Part shown: piece after piece, positions 49,769 to 64,000 of the stretch
Layout of the letters: every line of letters begins with the position of its first letter
Numbering within the stretch: the first letter of the stretch is position 1
Assembly (NCBI GenBank): GCA_026545225.1
Contig: CM048846.1
Location: 13,107,975 to 13,171,974 of the forward strand
Direction: 5' to 3'
DNA length: 64,000 nucleotides
From: Cornus controversa
Lineage: Eukaryota; Streptophyta; Magnoliopsida; Cornales; Cornaceae
Position numbers and translations under genes: made by a program
The notes under the pieces: model-generated
What the model was told of the DNA's origin: nothing
Seen by the model: only the letters and a program-made list of their open reading frames with translations
Databases searched by the model: none

Positions 49769-50710
49769 CTAGTGCCACATTTCACTGTCAAAACTAGCTA
49801 CCACTAGGCCGGCCTCGGATTGTTCGCCATGATCGATGTTGTCTAGCATCCCACCACCGTCCACTGGATCAACGTTAATTGCTCCATCCCTTGGAGTATA
49901 CACCACTTTGCTGCTAGACGCGCTACCAAGTTGATCAGTGCAGTAGCTATGATTCATTAATATCATTGGATTCGCGATTGAGTTTGAATAATTATTGACT
50001 GGAATTATTCCTCCTCCCTTTTGAGTTTGATCCAAGGGGTAATATTGGAAGGGCACGTCGAAATCAGAAATGGATTGCTGATGATGAGGGTATTGGTTGG
50101 GGTAATATTGGAGGGGCACCTCCAACTGCATGCTGTTTCTCCCAAACAAGTCCTGCATGGAATAAGAACATTGTTTCTGGGTGCAATCTATCATATTACC
50201 AGCTGGTACTGGTACTGGTGTGCCCTTCATGAATTCAAGGCGAGTTTCGACAGCTTCAATCTTACTCTCCATTACACGATTCAATTCCCTCAAGTCTTCC
50301 TCCGGGAGAGCGTCGTACCGATCATCCCAAGTAGGGTATAACTTAGCTTCATTCTCATTCTTATTCTTTGCGCGCAGTTTCATAAGCTCTTCTTCAAGCT
50401 TCTTCCTCTTGTCCTTGAAAAAGCTGAGCAAATCAACGGTCTTGGTACTATCATCTTGGTCAGGTCGCTTCTTGTAAGACTCAATCATGTCATGAACCTC
50501 ATTGTGATTCGTGGGCCAGGTCTCCACCTCCATGCCCATGGGGTCGTCAATGTCCTGTTTCGGGCTGTAAATTATTACGCACACACCAATGTCGCAGAGA
50601 GTCGATAATTCATAAGCTTTCTTCAACAAACCCTTCTTTCTCCTCTCAAAGGCCAAACGACGTCCCCTTTCATTACTTGTCACTTCCATCTTTCGTTTTG
50701 CTCTGCCCAT
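49769..50710 (-). CDS. Type I (M-gamma-like) MADS-box transcription factor, 313 aa
   Basis: Intronless frame from ATG at 50710. Residues 1-60 form the MADS DNA-binding domain (MGRAKRKMEV, then RRKKGLLKKAYELSTLC and IIYSP), with the short linker ending WPTNHNEVHDMI near residue 75 that fits M-gamma type I proteins. Residues 98-165 are K/E-rich and helical. There is no K-box. The C-terminal part is Q/Y/P-rich (VPLQYYPNQYPHHQQ) and ends MWH. Relatives act in the nucleus as heterodimers, mostly in central cell and endosperm. That role is inferred. It is the only one of three copies with both the MADS domain and the tail in frame. An 18-codon upstream ORF (ATG at 50736) overlaps its start. Confidence 0.88.
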   Translation of the reverse strand: MGRAKRKMEVTSNERGRRLAFERRKKGLLKKAYELSTLCDIGVCVIIYSPKQDIDDPMGMEVETWPTNHNEVHDMIESYKKRPDQDDSTKTVDLLSFFKDKRKKLEEELMKLRAKNKNENEAKLYPTWDDRYDALPEEDLRELNRVMESKIEAVETRLEFMKGTPVPVPAGNMIDCTQKQCSYSMQDLFGRNSMQLEVPLQYYPNQYPHHQQSISDFDVPFQYYPLDQTQKGGGIIPVNNYSNSIANPMILMNHSYCTDQLGSASSSKVVYTPRDGAINVDPVDGGGMLDNIDHGEQSEAGLVVASFDSEMWH

Positions 50711-55595: not shown

Positions 55596-57697
55596 ATGGG
55601 TAAGGCGAGAGGTGTGGAGATTGTTGATGAATTTGGGCCACTGAACCGCTACCAATCTATCGACGAATTTCTTGGTGTGGATGAGTGCGACCTGAGTCTC
55701 CCCGAGGTTCCTTCTGTTCCTCCGACATCAGCCAATCCCTCTTCTTCAGGAGATCAGAGTTCTTCGGGTTCTGATTTGGGGGACGCTGATCAAGACCTAA
55801 TTAGAACTCATGTGAATTTGGGAAAACTTATACTTGACTGTGAAATCCCGTCCGATGTTACTCTTAGGAACTATCCTCTTGATTTCGACTTTCGCTCTAG
55901 ATATGGTCTGGGTGATGACGATATGCTCTTCTCAGCCAGGCATTTTCCCGCCTTTCGTCTCCCCCTTCACCCTTTCTATCATCTTGTGCTTAACAAATTG
56001 AATTTGGCTCCTCTGCAAGTGAACCCTAACTTTTTTAGGGTTATATCAAGCGTTCTTGCTCTTAATCACACTCGTGATTTGGAGTTGGGATTGGACGATC
56101 TCCTTCTTTGTTATCAGATTTGCGCCACAAAGAATGAGAGGAACCGGTTCCACTTTTTCCCATGTCCGGGCAGATCGCTCTGCACTAGTCATCCCTTTTC
56201 TGACAAGGGCTGGAAAGCCCAACTCGTGGTGGTTGGGGGAAACTGGAAGGTCTCTTCTTCTAAGTCATTTCCCATCCCTCGGAAGTTCGGTGGATTAGGT
56301 ATCCCGCCCTCTGGTTTTCTATCTGAACCCCATTGTGGATGTATTATATGCGATGTTATGCTTTTTAATGAAATTCGGTCTTTTGTTGGCGCAGTTAGGG
56401 ATCTCCTTCCCCGTTCGGAGCTAGCGGCACGGCTGAAGACCCTTGCCGAAAAGGTGTGGAAGAAAGTACCTAAGTCCTCCCTTCTCCTATGCTCTCCGGT
56501 ACTTAAAGCTATTTCTGAAAGCGCAGAAGGTGCGGAAATGAAGCTTCCCAAAACCACTGGCACCAAGACGAAGAAGCTGTCTGAAGGGAACAGCCTTGCC
56601 GGTCCTCCGACCGACCGAGAAGCGGAAGTGGCCTCAGCTTTGCGCAAAAGACATGCTGAGGAGGTGGCGGCTGAAAAGTCACTTCCTGCCGAAGTGATAG
56701 AAATAGAGGAGTCTGCCCCTCCTTTGAAGTCCCAGAAGGCAAGTGCCTCAGCTTCTCCTTCGGTTCCAGAACCTAGGGGATCTCCAGCCGTTAGGGCGGC
56801 TAGATTGGGTTCTGATATCCCAAGCTCTTCAGCGGTGGATCCGTGGATTCATCGGATGGTGAAAGAGAATGGCATGCCTCTATCAGTCGAAGATTCCATT
56901 CTCGAAAGCAGGGAATCGATGAAGGCATTTCTGAAAGAGATGTGGCCTCCACGAGATGCGAAGATGATGATGGAGCTTTCTGTTGGCAACCTTTTGGAGT
57001 CATGTCCTGATGCCGCCCTCAAGGTAAAAGACATGCCTTCAACTTCGTCAAGTGTTCTTCTGTTACTTGTTTATGATAATTTTGTGTTCTTTTGCAGAGC
57101 CTGTTTGGTGTGATGACCATGTGCAAACTGGTCGAGCAGGCAACCATTAAGGTTAAAAAGGCAGATGCCCGAGTTAGGAGGGCAGAGGCAGACTTCGGGG
57201 CTGTCATGCGCGAGGTCAGCAATGAGAAGGCTAAATCCCAGGCTCTGTTGCTAGAGAATGAGCAACTCAAATCCCAAGTGGAGGATCTCTCCAAAAAGGC
57301 CGAGGAGGCTGAATTCCAGAGAGCACTGGCTGAGTCCCGAACGGCTGAATCCGAGCAGAACGTCAGCTCTTTACAGGAGAGATCGGTTAAGCTGGAGAAG
57401 GGTGCCAAGGCTCTGTTTGACCGCCTGTCACTTACTGTTCAGATCCGAAATACGGAGGCTTATCGCCAAGGCTTTGAGGATGCTGTGGCGCCCGAAGCTG
57501 ATAGATCCTACCCCGGTGGACCTGATGAGTACGATCGAGAGATGGGATTAAAGGGACCCCCTTATCAGGATCCGGAGGAAGGAGAAGCGGAGAAAGAGAT
57601 CGCTAGTATCTTTGAAGATGACCACGCTTCTCAACAGGATGTGGTGCCACCCAGTGGGGATCTCGCCAATACATCGGATTTTCCTACGGGTCCTTGA
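55596..57697 (+). CDS. Antisense gene of the Tat element (gypsy-type transposon protein), one intron
   Basis: ATG at 55596 (MGKARGVEIVDEFG) opens exon 1 to 57023. A 74-nt intron (57024-57097, GTAAAA to TTTTGCAG) restores frame to exon 2 (SLFGVMTMCKL) ending at 57697, about 675 residues in all. Residues about 73-190 (YPLDFDFRSRYG, FRLPLHPFYHLVLNKLNLAPLQ, RVISSVLALN, CATKNERNRFHFF) match the 'putative gypsy-type transposon' domain. Exon 2 is a long coiled coil (KKADARVRRAEADF, LLLENEQLKSQVEDL) with an acidic tail. It lies opposite to gag-pol, between the tandem repeats and the 3' LTR. Antisense ORFs at this place are known in Tat-lineage elements such as Grande. Their function is unknown. The start and intron are my reading, and no transcript evidence exists here. 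Confidence 0.75.
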
Positions 57698-57892: not shown

Positions 57893-58684
57893 ATTGTTCG
57901 GCTGTTCATGCCTTTTTTTATTTGAGACACTTAGCTGATCATGCTGAGATCTCGTTCGTTTCTTTATGGCGTTCGGCAAGTCATGTTGAAGTGTAGCTCG
58001 GCTTCTTATGGTGTTCGGTTGTTCATGCCATAGCCATATTTTCTCATTGAGGACCTTCGGCTGGTCAAGCTGAAGCGTCGCTCGATTTCTTATGGCGTTC
58101 GGCTGTTCATGCCTTAGCCGTATTTTCTCATCGAGGACCTTCGGCTGGTCATGCTGAAGTGTCGCTCGGTTTCTTATGGCGTTCGGCTGTTCATGCCTTA
58201 GCCGCATTTTCTCATCGAGGACCTTCAGCTGGTCATGCTGAAGCGTCGCTCGGTTTCTTATGGCGTTCGGCTGTTCATGCCTTAGCCGCATTTTCTCATC
58301 GAGGACCTTCGGCTGGTCAAGCTGAAGCGTCGCTCGATTTCTCATGGCGTTCGGCTGTTCATGCCTTAGCCGTATTTTCTCATCGAGGACCTTCGGCTGG
58401 TCATGCTGAAGTGTCGCTCGGTTTCTTATGGCGTTCGGCTGTTCATGCCTTAGCCGCATTTTCTCATCGAGGACCTTCGGCTGGTCATGCTGAAGCGTCG
58501 CTCGATTTCTTATGGCATTCGGCTGTTCATGCCTTAGCCGTATTTTCTCATCGAAGACCTTCGGCTGGTCATGCTGAAGTGTCGCTCGGTTTCTTATGGC
58601 GTTCGGCTGTTCATGCCTTAGCCGTATTTTCTCATCGAGGACCTTCGGCTGGTCATGCTGAAGTATCGCTCGGTTTTTTATGGA
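57893..58684. repeat. 84-bp minisatellite between pol and the antisense gene
   Basis: Units begin (GTTCGGCTGTTCATGCC) at 58013, 58097, 58181, 58265, 58349, 58433, 58517 and 58601, exactly 84 bp apart, with two degenerate or partial units before 58013. The repeat length is divisible by three, so long ORFs appear on both strands here (57887-58861 minus, 58159-58716 plus), but these are by-products. Tandem arrays in the post-pol region are known in Tat/Ogre elements and can seed satellites. A short T-run follows at 58690-58714. Confidence 0.92.
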
Positions 58685-58895: not shown

Positions 58896-61800
58896 TTACA
58901 TATAGTACCTTTTCAGGTGCATTGCGTTCCAAGGTTTTTCGACCATGGCTCCATTGCCGTGCATTCTTCGTAGTCTGTATGCCCCGTTTCTAATGGCTTC
59001 GACTATTTCAAATGGACCTTCCCATTTAGCTGCAAATTTTCCTGCGTTAGGTTCCTTGGTGTTGCTGGTGACCTTGCGTAAGACCCAGTCCCCTCGCTCG
59101 AACGAACGAGGTTTGACCTTCTTGTTGTAGGCCTTGCGAAGTCTTTGCTGGTAGGCTGCTACCCTTATCTGTGCAGCTTCTCTCTTTTCGTCAAGTAGCT
59201 CGACGTCGTGTTCGATCAGGCGATTGTTCTCCTGCTCATCGAACGATTCAATCCGTTCGGTCGGGACCTGTAGTTCAATCGGGATTACGGCTTCCATACC
59301 AAATGTCATATTGAAGGGACTACTCCCCATAGATCTTCTGGGGGTTATCCTGTAGGCCCAGAGCACTTTCGGCAGTTCTTCTAACCAGCGCCCTTTCCTC
59401 TCTTCTAACTTTTTCTTGATATTCTTGAAGATGGTTTTATTGGTGATCTCGGCTTGCCCGTTTCCTTGTGGGTAGGATCTTGAAGCGAGCCGTTGGTTGA
59501 TTCCATACTTGGCGAAGAATCTCCGGACGAACTGATTGTCCAGATTTTTACCATTGTCCATAATTATTGCCGATGGTATGCCAAAGCGGCATATCAAATT
59601 ATTCCAGATGAATTTTTTGACTTGAGTGTGGGTTACAGAGGCGTAAGCTTCTGCTTCGACCCACTTGGTGAAATAGTCTTTAGCCAGGAGAACGTATTTC
59701 TTCTTTTGAGCCGCGATCGGCAAGGGTCCCACCATGTCTATCCCCCATTGGGCGAAGGGCCAAGGGCTGGTCGTTGTATTCAAGTTCCCTGGTGGTTGGT
59801 GCAACAGCTGGGCGTGTTTTTGGCACTTGTCGCAATTTCTGGAATATTCTGCAGCATCACGGGACATGTACGGCCAGAAGTACCCTAGCGTCAGAGCTTT
59901 ATGGGCGAGCGATCGTCCCCCGAAATGATTGCCGCAAACCCCTTCATGGATTTCCTTCAATACTGTGTTGGCCTCCGAAGGCGTTAAACATTTTAACAAC
60001 GGTCCCGAAAATGACCTTCTGTAGAGGTTATTATTGACGATCGAATATCTTGAGACCCTCATTCTTATCTTCTTTGCCTCTGTTTTCTGTTCGGGGAGGG
60101 TTCCATTCATAAGGTATGCCTCTATCGGGTCAATCCAGCTTGGCTCCCGTGGGATGGCCAGTATTTCTATTGGTTTTCCGATGCTTGGTTCTCTCAGCTC
60201 TTCTACAGAGGATATCCTGGTCATAGATTCATCTGCGTTGGAGGCTGAGCACGCTAACCTGTCAGCTGCCTCGTTTTCATCACGTGGTATGTGCTTGATG
60301 ATCACTTCGTCAAAGTTTTTCATGTCTTCAAGTACTGCTTCTCGGTAAGAATTCATTTTATCTTCCTTGGCCTGGAATTCTCCCCTAACTTGACTCACCA
60401 CCAGCTGCGAGTCACTGAACAATGTTAGCTTTCTGATCTGTAAAGATTTAGCTAGCCGGAGACCCGCAAGCAGAGCCTCATACTCTGCTACATTGTTTGT
60501 GGCATCGAAATCAAATCGGATGGCATGGTGGAGCGTAATCCCATCGGGAGTTCTCACCTCTATTCCAGCCCCTGCTCTGGTGTGACAGGACGAGCCGTTT
60601 ACATAAACTTTCCACTGGGGTGTTTCTTCTTTCTCTTCCATCGGTTCATCATATTCTAATAGGAATTCGGCCAGCACCTGCCCCTTGCGGGCTGTTCGGG
60701 GTATGAAGAGGATGTCATAGGCGCTGAGGTCCATGGCCCACTTCATCATCCTCCCTGTCATGTCTGGCCTGCTTAGGATGGCCTTGAGCGGCAAATTTGT
60801 GGGGACAACTATCTGATGTGATTCGAAATAGTGCCTTAGCTTCTTCTTTGCGTGTATTAAAGCTAAAATCAGCTTCTCAGCCTTAGAATATCTTTTTTCG
60901 GCGTCAGTCATTGTCTTGCTGGAATAGTACACCGGGCGCTGCTTCCCATCCTCTTCTTTGATCAGCGCTGCGCTTGTCGATATCTTTGATACGGCTAAGT
61001 ATAAAAGTAATTTTTCTCCGGGCTTAGGTATCGAGAGTATTGGTGCTGAGGCCATATATTGCTTTAACCTTTTTAGGGCTTCCGTCTGTTCCGTTCCCCA
61101 AAGTTCGCCCTTCTTCTTACGGATAGCGTCGAAGAATGGCTTGCATTTGTCCGAGAGTCGTGATATGAATCTGCTAAGGGCGGCGATCCGTCCAGTGAGG
61201 ACCTGGACGTCCCTCTGGGTTTTTGGTTCCGACGTCTGAATCAACGCCAAAGATTGGGATGGACTCATTTCTACCCCCGTTCTGCTGACCATGTGACCGA
61301 GGAATTGTCCGGATTGCACTCCGAACGAACATTTCGATGGATTAAGCCTTAGCCGATGTTTCCTAAAGGTGTCGAACACATCTTGTAAATGTTGCCCGTG
61401 GTCTTCCCTTCTTTTACTTTTGACAACCATGTCGTCTATGTAGGCCTCCACGGTCTCTCCGATCTGATCTCTGAAGACGCGACTGACCATTCTCTGATAT
61501 GTTGCCCCTGCATTCTTTAAACCAAAGGGCATTACTTTGTAACAGAAGGTCCCTTGTTCGGTAATGAACGAAGTTTTTTCCTCGTCCTTTTGATCCAACG
61601 GAATCTGGTTGTACCCTGAATAGGCGTCCAGGAAGGTCAGCAACTCATAACCTGTAGTGGCGTCTACCATCTGGTCTATTTTTGGTAATGGGAAGCTATC
61701 CTTCGGGCAGGCTTTGTTCAGGTTAGTGAAATCGATACAAACTCTCCATTTTCCATTTTTCTTTCGTACCACCACAACATTGGATAACCATTCTGGGTAC

Positions 61801-62165
61801 TTTACTTCCCTGATAAGATTAGCTTGGAGCAGGCGACGGATCTCCTCGGCTATTATTTGGTTTCTTTTCGGGGCAAATCTTCTCTGCTTTTGCTTAATTG
61901 GGGTACTATTGGGGTCCACGTTCAGGGTATGTTTCACCAGATTGGGATCCATTCCTGGCATGTCAAGGTGAGTCCAGGCGAACACGTCTCTGTTCCTTCT
62001 TAATACTTCTATCAGCTCTTCCTTTTCTTTGTTCTGCAGCATCGTCCCGATCTGCGTACATTTATTTTCACCCAGGCTGCCTAGTTGAACTGTTTGGAGA
62101 GGCTCCATGGGTTGGGCTATACTTTCGGCCTCCGACAGTTCCGGCGTGCCCGATCTCTGTGGTTG
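58896..62165 (-). CDS. Tat-lineage Ty3/gypsy pol: RT, RNase H, second RNase H, integrase
   Basis: Open from the codon after the gag stop (62165) to TAA at 58896. The first internal ATG is at 62108, and residues below count from it. RT spans about 65-300 (CIDFTNLNKACPKDSFPLP, catalytic YIDD at 223-226). A degenerate gypsy RNase H follows (about 365-485), then a second, archaeal-type RNase H (about 498-620) with E542, D566 and D616, but N504 where the first catalytic Asp is expected (VYVNGSS). Integrase has its HHCC zinc site (H721, H728, C759, C762) and DDE triad D791, D851, E887, and ends MHLKRYYM. Dual RNase H is a Tat hallmark. It is in frame with gag and is probably made by stop-codon readthrough. 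No frameshift or internal stop is seen, so it is well preserved. Confidence 0.93.
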   Translation of the reverse strand, partial: QPQRSGTPELSEAESIAQPMEPLQTVQLGSLGENKCTQIGTMLQNKEKEELIEVLRRNRDVFAWTHLDMPGMDPNLVKHTLNVDPNSTPIKQKQRRFAPKRNQIIAEEIRRLLQANLIREVKYPEWLSNVVVVRKKNGKWRVCIDFTNLNKACPKDSFPLPKIDQMVDATTGYELLTFLDAYSGYNQIPLDQKDEEKTSFITEQGTFCYKVMPFGLKNAGATYQRMVSRVFRDQIGETVEAYIDDMVVKSKRREDHGQHLQDVFDTFRKHRLRLNPSKCSFGVQSGQFLGHMVSRTGVEMSPSQSLALIQTSEPKTQRDVQVLTGRIAALSRFISRLSDKCKPFFDAIRKKKGELWGTEQTEALKRLKQYMASAPILSIPKPGEKLLLYLAVSKISTSAALIKEEDGKQRPVYYSSKTMTDAEKRYSKAEKLILALIHAKKKLRHYFESHQIVVPTNLPLKAILSRPDMTGRMMKWAMDLSAYDILFIPRTARKGQVLAEFLLEYDEPMEEKEETPQWKVYVNGSSCHTRAGAGIEVRTPDGITLHHAIRFDFDATNNVAEYEALLAGLRLAKSLQIRKLTLFSDSQLVVSQVRGEFQAKEDKMNSYREAVLEDMKNFDEVIIKHIPRDENEAADRLACSASNADESMTRISSVEELREPSIGKPIEILAIPREPSWIDPIEAYLMNGTLPEQKTEAKKIRMRVSRYSIVNNNLYRRSFSGPLLKCLTPSEANTVLKEIHEGVCGNHFGGRSLAHKALTLGYFWPYMSRDAAEYSRNCDKCQKHAQLLHQPPGNLNTTTSPWPFAQWGIDMVGPLPIAAQKKKYVLLAKDYFTKWVEAEAYASVTHTQVKKFIWNNLICRFGIPSAIIMDNGKNLDNQFVRRFFAKYGINQRLASRSYPQGNGQAEITNKTIFKNIKKKLEERKGRWLEELPKVLWAYRITPRRSMGSSPFNMTFGMEAVIPIELQVPTERIESFDEQENNRLIEHDVELLDEKREAAQIRVAAYQQRLRKAYNKKVKPRSFERGDWVLRKVTSNTKEPNAGKFAAKWEGPFEIVEAIRNGAYRLRRMHGNGAMVEKPWNAMHLKRYYM

Positions 62166-64000
62166 CTATTGGACGTTAACCCCTGCGGCTTCTGTACTTT
62201 TCGAAGTGCTTCTGATAGTGAGCGAATAACATTCTTTTGCTGCTACCTGATCTCCCCGAAGATCTACCGTTCCTCTTCCGTTAGGGGTAAGACATCTCAT
62301 CACTTGGTGCAGGGTTGACGGTACCCCTTGCATCCTGTGTATCCAACCTCTTCCCATTATAAGGTTATAGGACGAACGAACGTCTGCTATTACGAACGTT
62401 TCCCTGAGTGTTCTCTGCGTGGCCGTTACCGACAACGCGATCGTTCCGCACGGTAGTACCTTGTTTCCATCAAAACCCACGAGCGGCCCGTCGGCTCGTT
62501 TGATCTGGTCACTCCCGATTCCCACTTGCTTGAAAACTTCCAATGTCATTATATTCGCACTTGATCCGACATCAATAAGCACCCTTTTTATCCAACAGTT
62601 TGCAACTAGTAGGCTGACTACTAATGGATCTTCGTGGGGGAGCTGCACTCTTAGTAGGTCCGGATCTCCGAACGTGATCTGAGCATCGGCCCCCATGTCT
62701 TGAACGGAATTGATCTCCGTCATCTTCTGTAATTTTTTTGCTTGGCGTACGACCGATCTGGACGATCCATGGTCTCCTCGGGTAGCGTAACCATGTATTG
62801 TGTTGATCGTCCTGACCGTGTTTGGATTTGGGTTTTCTCTTCGTTCGGGCCCTATGCGTTCATTCGGCCTTGATTGATCTTTCACCACGTATTCTGTCAG
62901 TCCCCCTTTTACAATGATCGCCTCTACTTGTCCTTTGAGATTGCGGCACTCGTTGGTGGTGTGCCCATAATCCTGATACAGAGCGCAATGCTTGCTCTTA
63001 TCTCTGAGCTCGACTGGGATCCGGATGGGTGGGGGTGTTCGAAATATGCCCCTACTCTTGTTTTCCTGGTACAGCCTCGACAGTGTGCACTTCAGAGGTG
63101 TGTTCTTCTCCTCGAATTTGGGACGCTTCCCTGACGTTGGGGGTGGAAGCGGGACTCTGCTTTTCTGCTTATCACCTTTCTCCTTAGGTAACGGGCCGAC
63201 GCTTATCAGAGCTGTCCTTTGCTGGCGCAAAACTTCATCTTCCTCGAGACTGAGGTATCCTTGTGCCTTTGCGTTCAGGTCCCCCATGGTTTTGGGGGTT
63301 TTTCTGACCAGAGATGAATGGAATTTCGAGCCAGGGATCATGGCTATTTTGAACGCTTCCACCGCCGCTGCTTGGTCGCATCCATCAATCAGGAACATTT
63401 CCAGATTGAATCTGGTCATAAAGGACTTCAATGGTTCTCCTTTTGCTTGCCTCATGGTGAAAAGAGAGGAAATTGTCTTCTTCTGTCTTCGGTTGCCAAT
63501 GTATTGTGCGATGAAAAGCTCGCATAATTTCATAAAACTGGGGATGCTACCCGAAGGTTGCTGTTTAAACCATGTCAGGGCAGCGCCGGACAGACTGGTT
63601 GGAAAAACCTTGCACATGAGGTTTTCATCTTCTGCGTGCAAAGTCATCCTCTGCTGCACATGAAAGAGGTGGTCAACAGGGTCTGTCGTTCCGTCGAAGG
63701 TGATGAAACTTGGGAGTGCGAATTTCCTTGGGTTCGGTGACCTCCTTATCTCGTCTGAAAAAGGAGATTGTATCACTTTGCTGGCAACTTGTGTTGCTAG
63801 ATCTGCTGGGGTCATGTTCTTCAGGTCTTTAATGTTGGCATTAACTTCCTCCAGACGTCGGGTCAGTGCATCGAAGCTGGCTTCGGGTCTGGTGGTACGG
63901 GACTCTGGAGGTTCCGCGATTCGTCCTTCATTTCGAGCGGAATTGTATTCCACGGATGCTTCCCTCTCGGGTGGGGCAGCCTCCGGCTGTTTTTCGGTGA
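62166..64000 (-). CDS. Tat-lineage gag-protease, 5' end outside the window
   Basis: The minus-strand frame is open from the window edge (first full codon near 63998) to TAG at 62168-62166. The usual gag capsid domain is visible (FDGTTDPVDHLFHVQQRMTL, ALTWFKQQP, LFIAQYIGNRRQKK, about 63380-63680). A zinc-knuckle-like segment (CALYQDYGHTTNEC, about 62950-62990) has lost its second Cys. An aspartic protease region follows (VLIDVGSSANIM near 62560-62590, then YNLIMGRGW near 62345), with the catalytic Asp kept but the following residue changed from the common Thr or Gly to Val. The GTG at 63953 is not a start, because the frame runs through it. The stop is in a readthrough-type context leading into pol. 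Confidence 0.9.
   Translation of the reverse strand, partial: TEKQPEAAPPEREASVEYNSARNEGRIAEPPESRTTRPEASFDALTRRLEEVNANIKDLKNMTPADLATQVASKVIQSPFSDEIRRSPNPRKFALPSFITFDGTTDPVDHLFHVQQRMTLHAEDENLMCKVFPTSLSGAALTWFKQQPSGSIPSFMKLCELFIAQYIGNRRQKKTISSLFTMRQAKGEPLKSFMTRFNLEMFLIDGCDQAAAVEAFKIAMIPGSKFHSSLVRKTPKTMGDLNAKAQGYLSLEEDEVLRQQRTALISVGPLPKEKGDKQKSRVPLPPPTSGKRPKFEEKNTPLKCTLSRLYQENKSRGIFRTPPPIRIPVELRDKSKHCALYQDYGHTTNECRNLKGQVEAIIVKGGLTEYVVKDQSRPNERIGPERRENPNPNTVRTINTIHGYATRGDHGSSRSVVRQAKKLQKMTEINSVQDMGADAQITFGDPDLLRVQLPHEDPLVVSLLVANCWIKRVLIDVGSSANIMTLEVFKQVGIGSDQIKRADGPLVGFDGNKVLPCGTIALSVTATQRTLRETFVIADVRSSYNLIMGRGWIHRMQGVPSTLHQVMRCLTPNGRGTVDLRGDQVAAKECYSLTIRSTSKSTEAAGVNVQ

Follow-up and report, generated by a model that had tools for sequence, protein, structure and literature searches.

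Leaky stop codons of the tobamovirus type consist of a UAG followed by CAR-YYA (PMC2754532), and in the replicase gene of tobacco mosaic virus (TMV) the codon before the stop is CAA. In a plant reporter the TMV context gave 32% readthrough and that of BNYVV 11%, and tyrosine is reported to be inserted at the TMV-context stop in planta (PMC2754532). The same source describes the plant examples of readthrough verified by 2009 as all viral, and among gypsy-type retrotransposons it names RIRE2 of rice (Ohtsubo 1999) as a candidate for readthrough. RIRE2 is listed under Retand (PMC6317226), and its likeness to the element described below, drawn through the citing text, lies in that membership and that candidacy.

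In Moloney murine leukaemia virus (MuLV) gag and pol share a frame, and the UAG that separates them is read through by means of a purine-rich spacer and a pseudoknot. Stop codon suppression has also been reported for a plant LTR retrotransposon, the Ty1/copia element SIRE1 of soybean, although there it joins pol to an env-like ORF and not gag-pro to pol. In Ogre, a sister clade within the Tat lineage, gag-pro and pol also occupy two ORFs, but these are separated by a spacer averaging 274 bp that is spliced out (PMC6317226). According to a 2025 survey, 41% of Retand clusters have two ORFs, and 83% of the eudicot clusters have a single one (PMC11963269), so the two-ORF form would be the rarer of the two in eudicots. 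A 2003 survey, as related in PMC5009743, sorted plant elements in separate frames into two types and did not include a class with an in-frame UAG. For many families of plant LTR retrotransposons, the means by which Gag is made in excess of Pol is still a question.

Here we describe a retrotransposon of Cornus controversa in which gag-pro and pol are divided by a single in-frame UAG in a tobamovirus-type context, and we examine how well that context is kept among copies of the element. Readthrough in such elements is not a new proposal; what appears to be new is family-wide evidence involving the tobamovirus hexamer. A word search of the main text of PMC11963269 for 'readthrough', 'read-through' and 'UAG' found none of them, and in the accessible part of the open-licence literature we found no report of a conserved CAR-YYA at the gag-pol junction of a Ty3 element.

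The element and its gag-pro/pol junction

The window, a stretch of 64,000 nucleotides, holds at its right end most of one Ty3-type retrotransposon, on the minus strand. The gag-pro ORF (62166..63998, minus strand) runs for 610 codons to the window edge, its start lying beyond; it matches PF03732 (Retrotrans_gag, E 1.4e-12) and contains a protease motif recognized by eye, with no protease match in Pfam. The pol ORF (58896..62165, minus strand) has 1089 codons counted from the codon after the UAG, or 1070 from its first ATG at 62108. Its Pfam matches follow the order RVT_1, RT_RNaseH, RVT_3/RNase_H, Integrase_H2C2 and rve, that is, reverse transcriptase (RT), RNase H (RH), a second RNase H-like domain and integrase (INT). 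Gag, RT and RNase H are all present, as in Tat/Retand elements, with a further RNase H placed between RH and integrase, and a second RNase H at this place is a mark of Ogre and Retand (PMC6317226).

Downstream of pol lies a tandem array of 8.5 copies of an 84-bp unit (57972..58683), in keeping with the tandem repeats reported between pol and the 3' LTR in about half of Tat/Retand elements. The unit length is a multiple of three, and the array is crossed by long ORFs of 324 aa on the minus strand and 185 aa on the plus strand. Farther along, an antisense ORF of 505 aa (55596..57113, plus strand) has a weak match to Transposase_28 (TRP28; PF04195), which at E 6.7e-5 and 23.5 bits does not reach the curated threshold of 26.2; in the 2025 survey, 97% of Retand clusters carry a TRP28 ORF in antisense (PMC11963269). 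It is overlapped by a second antisense ORF of 201 aa (57092..57697, plus strand) that has no Pfam match. Domain order, tandem array and antisense ORF together fit a Retand-type (Tat lineage) Ty3 retrotransposon, consistent with the Tat identity proposed in the preliminary description.

The gag-pro and pol ORFs share one frame, with a single TAG between the 610 codons before it and the 1089 after, and no other stop. On the minus strand the junction reads CAA-TAG-CAA-CCA-CAG (62157..62171), comprising a CAA codon before the stop as in TMV (62169..62171), the UAG that ends gag-pro (62166..62168) and the hexamer CAACCA, which conforms to CAR-YYA (62160..62165). The 19-codon linker from the UAG to the first pol ATG (62109..62165, minus strand) is open. 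The preliminary description had given this reading of the junction, the shared frame and the 19 open codons leading to the ATG at 62108, and each was confirmed. Two features of a type I readthrough site, UAG followed by CAR-YYA and a long in-frame ORF downstream, are present. The word CAATAGCARYYA occurs once in the window. Of 100 dinucleotide shuffles, 8 also contain one or more occurrences (mean 0.08), so the word carries little weight by itself; what matters is where it lies.

Conservation of the stop and its context

We aligned 100 copies from the 772-Mb genome to which the window belongs. The window copy is one of 40 that came from DNA matches, and the other 60 were taken from a further set of about 113 protein matches; overlap between the two sets was counted by eye, and the loci L049-L056 were repeats of places already sampled. 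Counts over these copies are limited by the descent that copies of one genome have in common. The stop is TAG in 97 copies and TAA in the other three, with no sense codon in any, so that the outcome which the preliminary description had named as refuting its reading, a sense codon in most copies, did not occur. The codon before the stop is CAA in 98 copies and gapped in two, bearing out the upstream match to TMV that had also been claimed.

The hexamer is CAATCA in 65 copies, CAACCA in 25, CAACTA in two and some other sequence in eight. CAR-YYA is thus found in 92 of the 100 copies while the flanking codons drift, which is the pattern that the preliminary description had proposed as a check, so that its second refuting outcome, a hexamer not conserved across copies, did not arise either; the full TAG-CAR-YYA is present in 91 copies and absent from nine. 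The codon after CAR-YYA (62154-62159, minus strand) is also well kept, being CAG in 91 copies, TAG in four and CAA in four.

The third base of a codon is usually the freest to change. In the YYA codon it changed once, against a mean of 5.3 changes across 56 flanking codons. Since CCA, TCA and CTA alter the amino acid yet all remain Y-Y-A, with the third base nearly fixed, the conservation of the hexamer looks like that of a signal in the RNA and not like a constraint on the protein. Across linker codons +3 to +19, changes by codon position numbered 69, 49 and 96, with most at the third position, like translated sequence.

Parsimony on a FastTree tree gave 14 changes for the 12-base motif, where the local mean is 43.1 and none of the other segments among 180 nearby had so few. 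Over the whole alignment 27 of 1290 segments, the motif included, were as low, as were 10 of 430 in phase; the other nine in-phase segments are read as belonging to the protease and RT cores. The motif contains no CG or CHG site, and among 350 segments of that kind 22, again with the motif counted, were equally low. It may for that reason mutate slowly, and slow mutation may account for part of its conservation. Two features fall outside such an account: the stop has changed only from TAG to TAA, and between subfamilies the variation of the hexamer stays within Y-Y-A.

Many copies are decayed. Among the fetched copies, 17 have a pol that is open for 1088-1095 codons, uninterrupted by any stop within the match, and all 17 have TAG followed by CAR-YYA. 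In 14 of these 17, no further in-frame stop occurs across the 313 or 544 upstream codons covered.

Alignment-free counts and a second family

Pattern searches of the genome gave counts independent of the alignment. The pattern AACCAA-NNN-CAATCACAGAARYC, which leaves the stop free, occurs at 47 places, 45 with TAG and two with TAA, and its reversed control at none. The pattern AACCAATAG-NNNNNN-CAGAARCC, which leaves the hexamer free, occurs at 43 places, with CAATCA at 42 and TGTCAC at one; 39 of these places were read directly (38 CAATCA) and the other four from the result of the stop-free pattern.

A second family came from the word CAATAGCAATTA, found at 236 places in the genome against 38 for the reversed word. 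Eight of its loci were fetched. Three of them, L001-L003, are in-frame gag-pol junctions, unlike the other five, L004-L008, so the excess over the reversed word does not consist of junctions throughout. At L004 and L005 the word lies out of the gag-pol frame in sequence of related elements, by its look integrase-coding DNA, and such occurrences inflate the genome counts. L001-L003 were left out of the 100 copies because the DNA alignment was unreliable at their stop, and their frame was read separately. The RT of this family is 68% identical to that of the window, with one Cornus florida protein at 71% identity. Its context, CAA-TAG-CAA-TTA, occurs at 22 places when the stop is left free and at the same 22 when TAG is fixed, giving TAG in 22 of 22.

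Probable readthrough and alternative explanations

From the sequence we consider it likely that pol is made as a Gag-Pro-Pol fusion by readthrough of a UAG in the tobamovirus type I context CAA-UAG-CAR-YYA. At the UAG most ribosomes would terminate, releasing Gag-Pro; a smaller share would insert an amino acid there and continue into Pol, and such partial readthrough would yield more Gag than Pol. Readthrough, its level, the decoding tRNA and a use in setting the ratio of Gag to Pol are all points that we infer. The resemblance to the TMV replicase gene includes the UAG, the CAR-YYA after it and the CAA before it, and the second family has the exact CAA-UAG-CAA-UUA. TMV, however, is an RNA virus whose product is a replicase, whereas here the predicted product is the Gag-Pro-Pol of a chromosomal element, with YYA mostly UCA or CCA. 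Against readthrough stand five gene models of Cornus florida with glutamine at the stop position, the single ORFs of relatives in Fagus and Tasmannia, the freedom of the motif from CG and CHG sites, the nine aligned copies without the full TAG-CAR-YYA, the one free-hexamer place with TGTCAC, and the common descent of copies within one genome.

No stable RNA structure was found at the junction in 14 sequences (z from -0.39 to 1.07 against base shuffles) or in the window copy against dinucleotide shuffles (z 0.57), by programs that are blind to pseudoknots. Within that reach, readthrough of the structure-dependent MuLV type is disfavoured, and the present element also differs from MuLV in having its protease before the stop. 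RNA structure would apparently not be needed, as in TMV.

Among the alternatives, splicing survives best, although we regard it as very unlikely. By this account an intron holding the stop would be removed from part of the RNA, and the spliced RNA would give Pol, as has been reported in Ogre (PMC6317226). Possible splice sites are present: GT dinucleotides at -179, -156 and -135, like several AGs farther downstream, are conserved in 90 or more of the 100 copies, and pairing the GT at -135 with the AG inside the stop codon would excise 138 bases in phase. This candidate, the one GT-AG pair scored, is 53% AU and 20% T, however, with 36% pyrimidine in its last 28 bases, and it spans the protein segment GDQ..KECY, which is also found in proteins of Cornus, Fagus and Tasmannia. 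The two ORFs adjoin at one stop, without the intron-bearing spacer that lies between the ORFs of Ogre, and splicing leaves the conservation of CAR-YYA unexplained.

It is also conceivable, if even less probable, that the stop merely ends Gag-Pro, that descent together with slow mutation fixed it in the source copies, and that Pol is supplied by other elements. The equally conserved segments among those lacking CG and CHG, the decay of many copies and the single-ORF relatives in other plants speak for this account. Three observations count against it, namely that pol is open behind the stop in the 17 copies described above, that variation of the hexamer between subfamilies is confined to Y-Y-A, and that the same UAG context recurs in a family at 68% RT identity.

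Least probable of the three is the separate translation of Pol from an internal start codon 3' of the stop: the in-frame ATG at 62108, 19 codons past the stop, is kept in just 3 of 100 copies, and while better-kept in-frame ATGs lie deeper in pol (codon 42 in 57 copies, codon 69 in 94 and codon 72 in 78), an internal start leaves the hexamer unexplained and the linker codons evolve like translated sequence. Frameshifting was dropped, as gag-pro and pol are in one frame. The preliminary description had set aside both a frameshift and an internal start, and on both points the results agree with it.

Relatives in other species

Scans of viral contigs and genome contigs yielded no relative in the DNA of other species, and the cross-species evidence is therefore protein only. 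By protein, 45 of 46 gag-pro relatives are named Cornus florida. Five of its models (P0122, P0127, P0129, P0164 and P0093) read S-T-Q-Q-Q-P, with glutamine at the position of the stop. P0132 ends in STQ, as a glutamine codon followed by the stop would, and P0133 ends in SPQ; in further models the last residue is K or R, or the junction seems to have been spliced around. The five glutamine models and the one ending in S-T-Q give the impression of a site that is sometimes a glutamine codon and sometimes a stop, which suggests that sense-codon copies exist in Cornus florida, although the evidence is biased because gene models favour open copies. As a guess, an origin of the leaky stop by change of CAG to TAG would fit this pattern.

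In more distant plants, Fagus (P0009) and Tasmannia (P0095) have relatives with the same domain order and a related pol, but in these gag to integrase form one continuous gene model with no stop.

Implications

If readthrough operates here, a conserved signal of tobamovirus type would offer a concrete mechanism for two-ORF Retand elements and add a chromosomal user to the best-studied recoding signal of plants. We put forward more tentatively, as a possibility somewhat short of an even chance, that two-ORF Retand elements across flowering plants set their ratio of Gag-Pro to Pol by the tobamovirus leaky-stop code, with selection at the RNA level for the CAR-YYA class. One signal to the plant ribosome would then be common to RNA viruses and a major retrotransposon lineage, perhaps born in the latter by a single CAG-to-TAG change in a run of glutamine codons. 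For annotation, one stop at such a junction is no reason to score these elements as broken.

Elsewhere in the window, at 49769-50710, lies a gene for a MADS-box protein of 313 aa, whose nearest match is a PHERES 2-like protein of Cornus florida at 43% identity, with proteins of Ericales also near.
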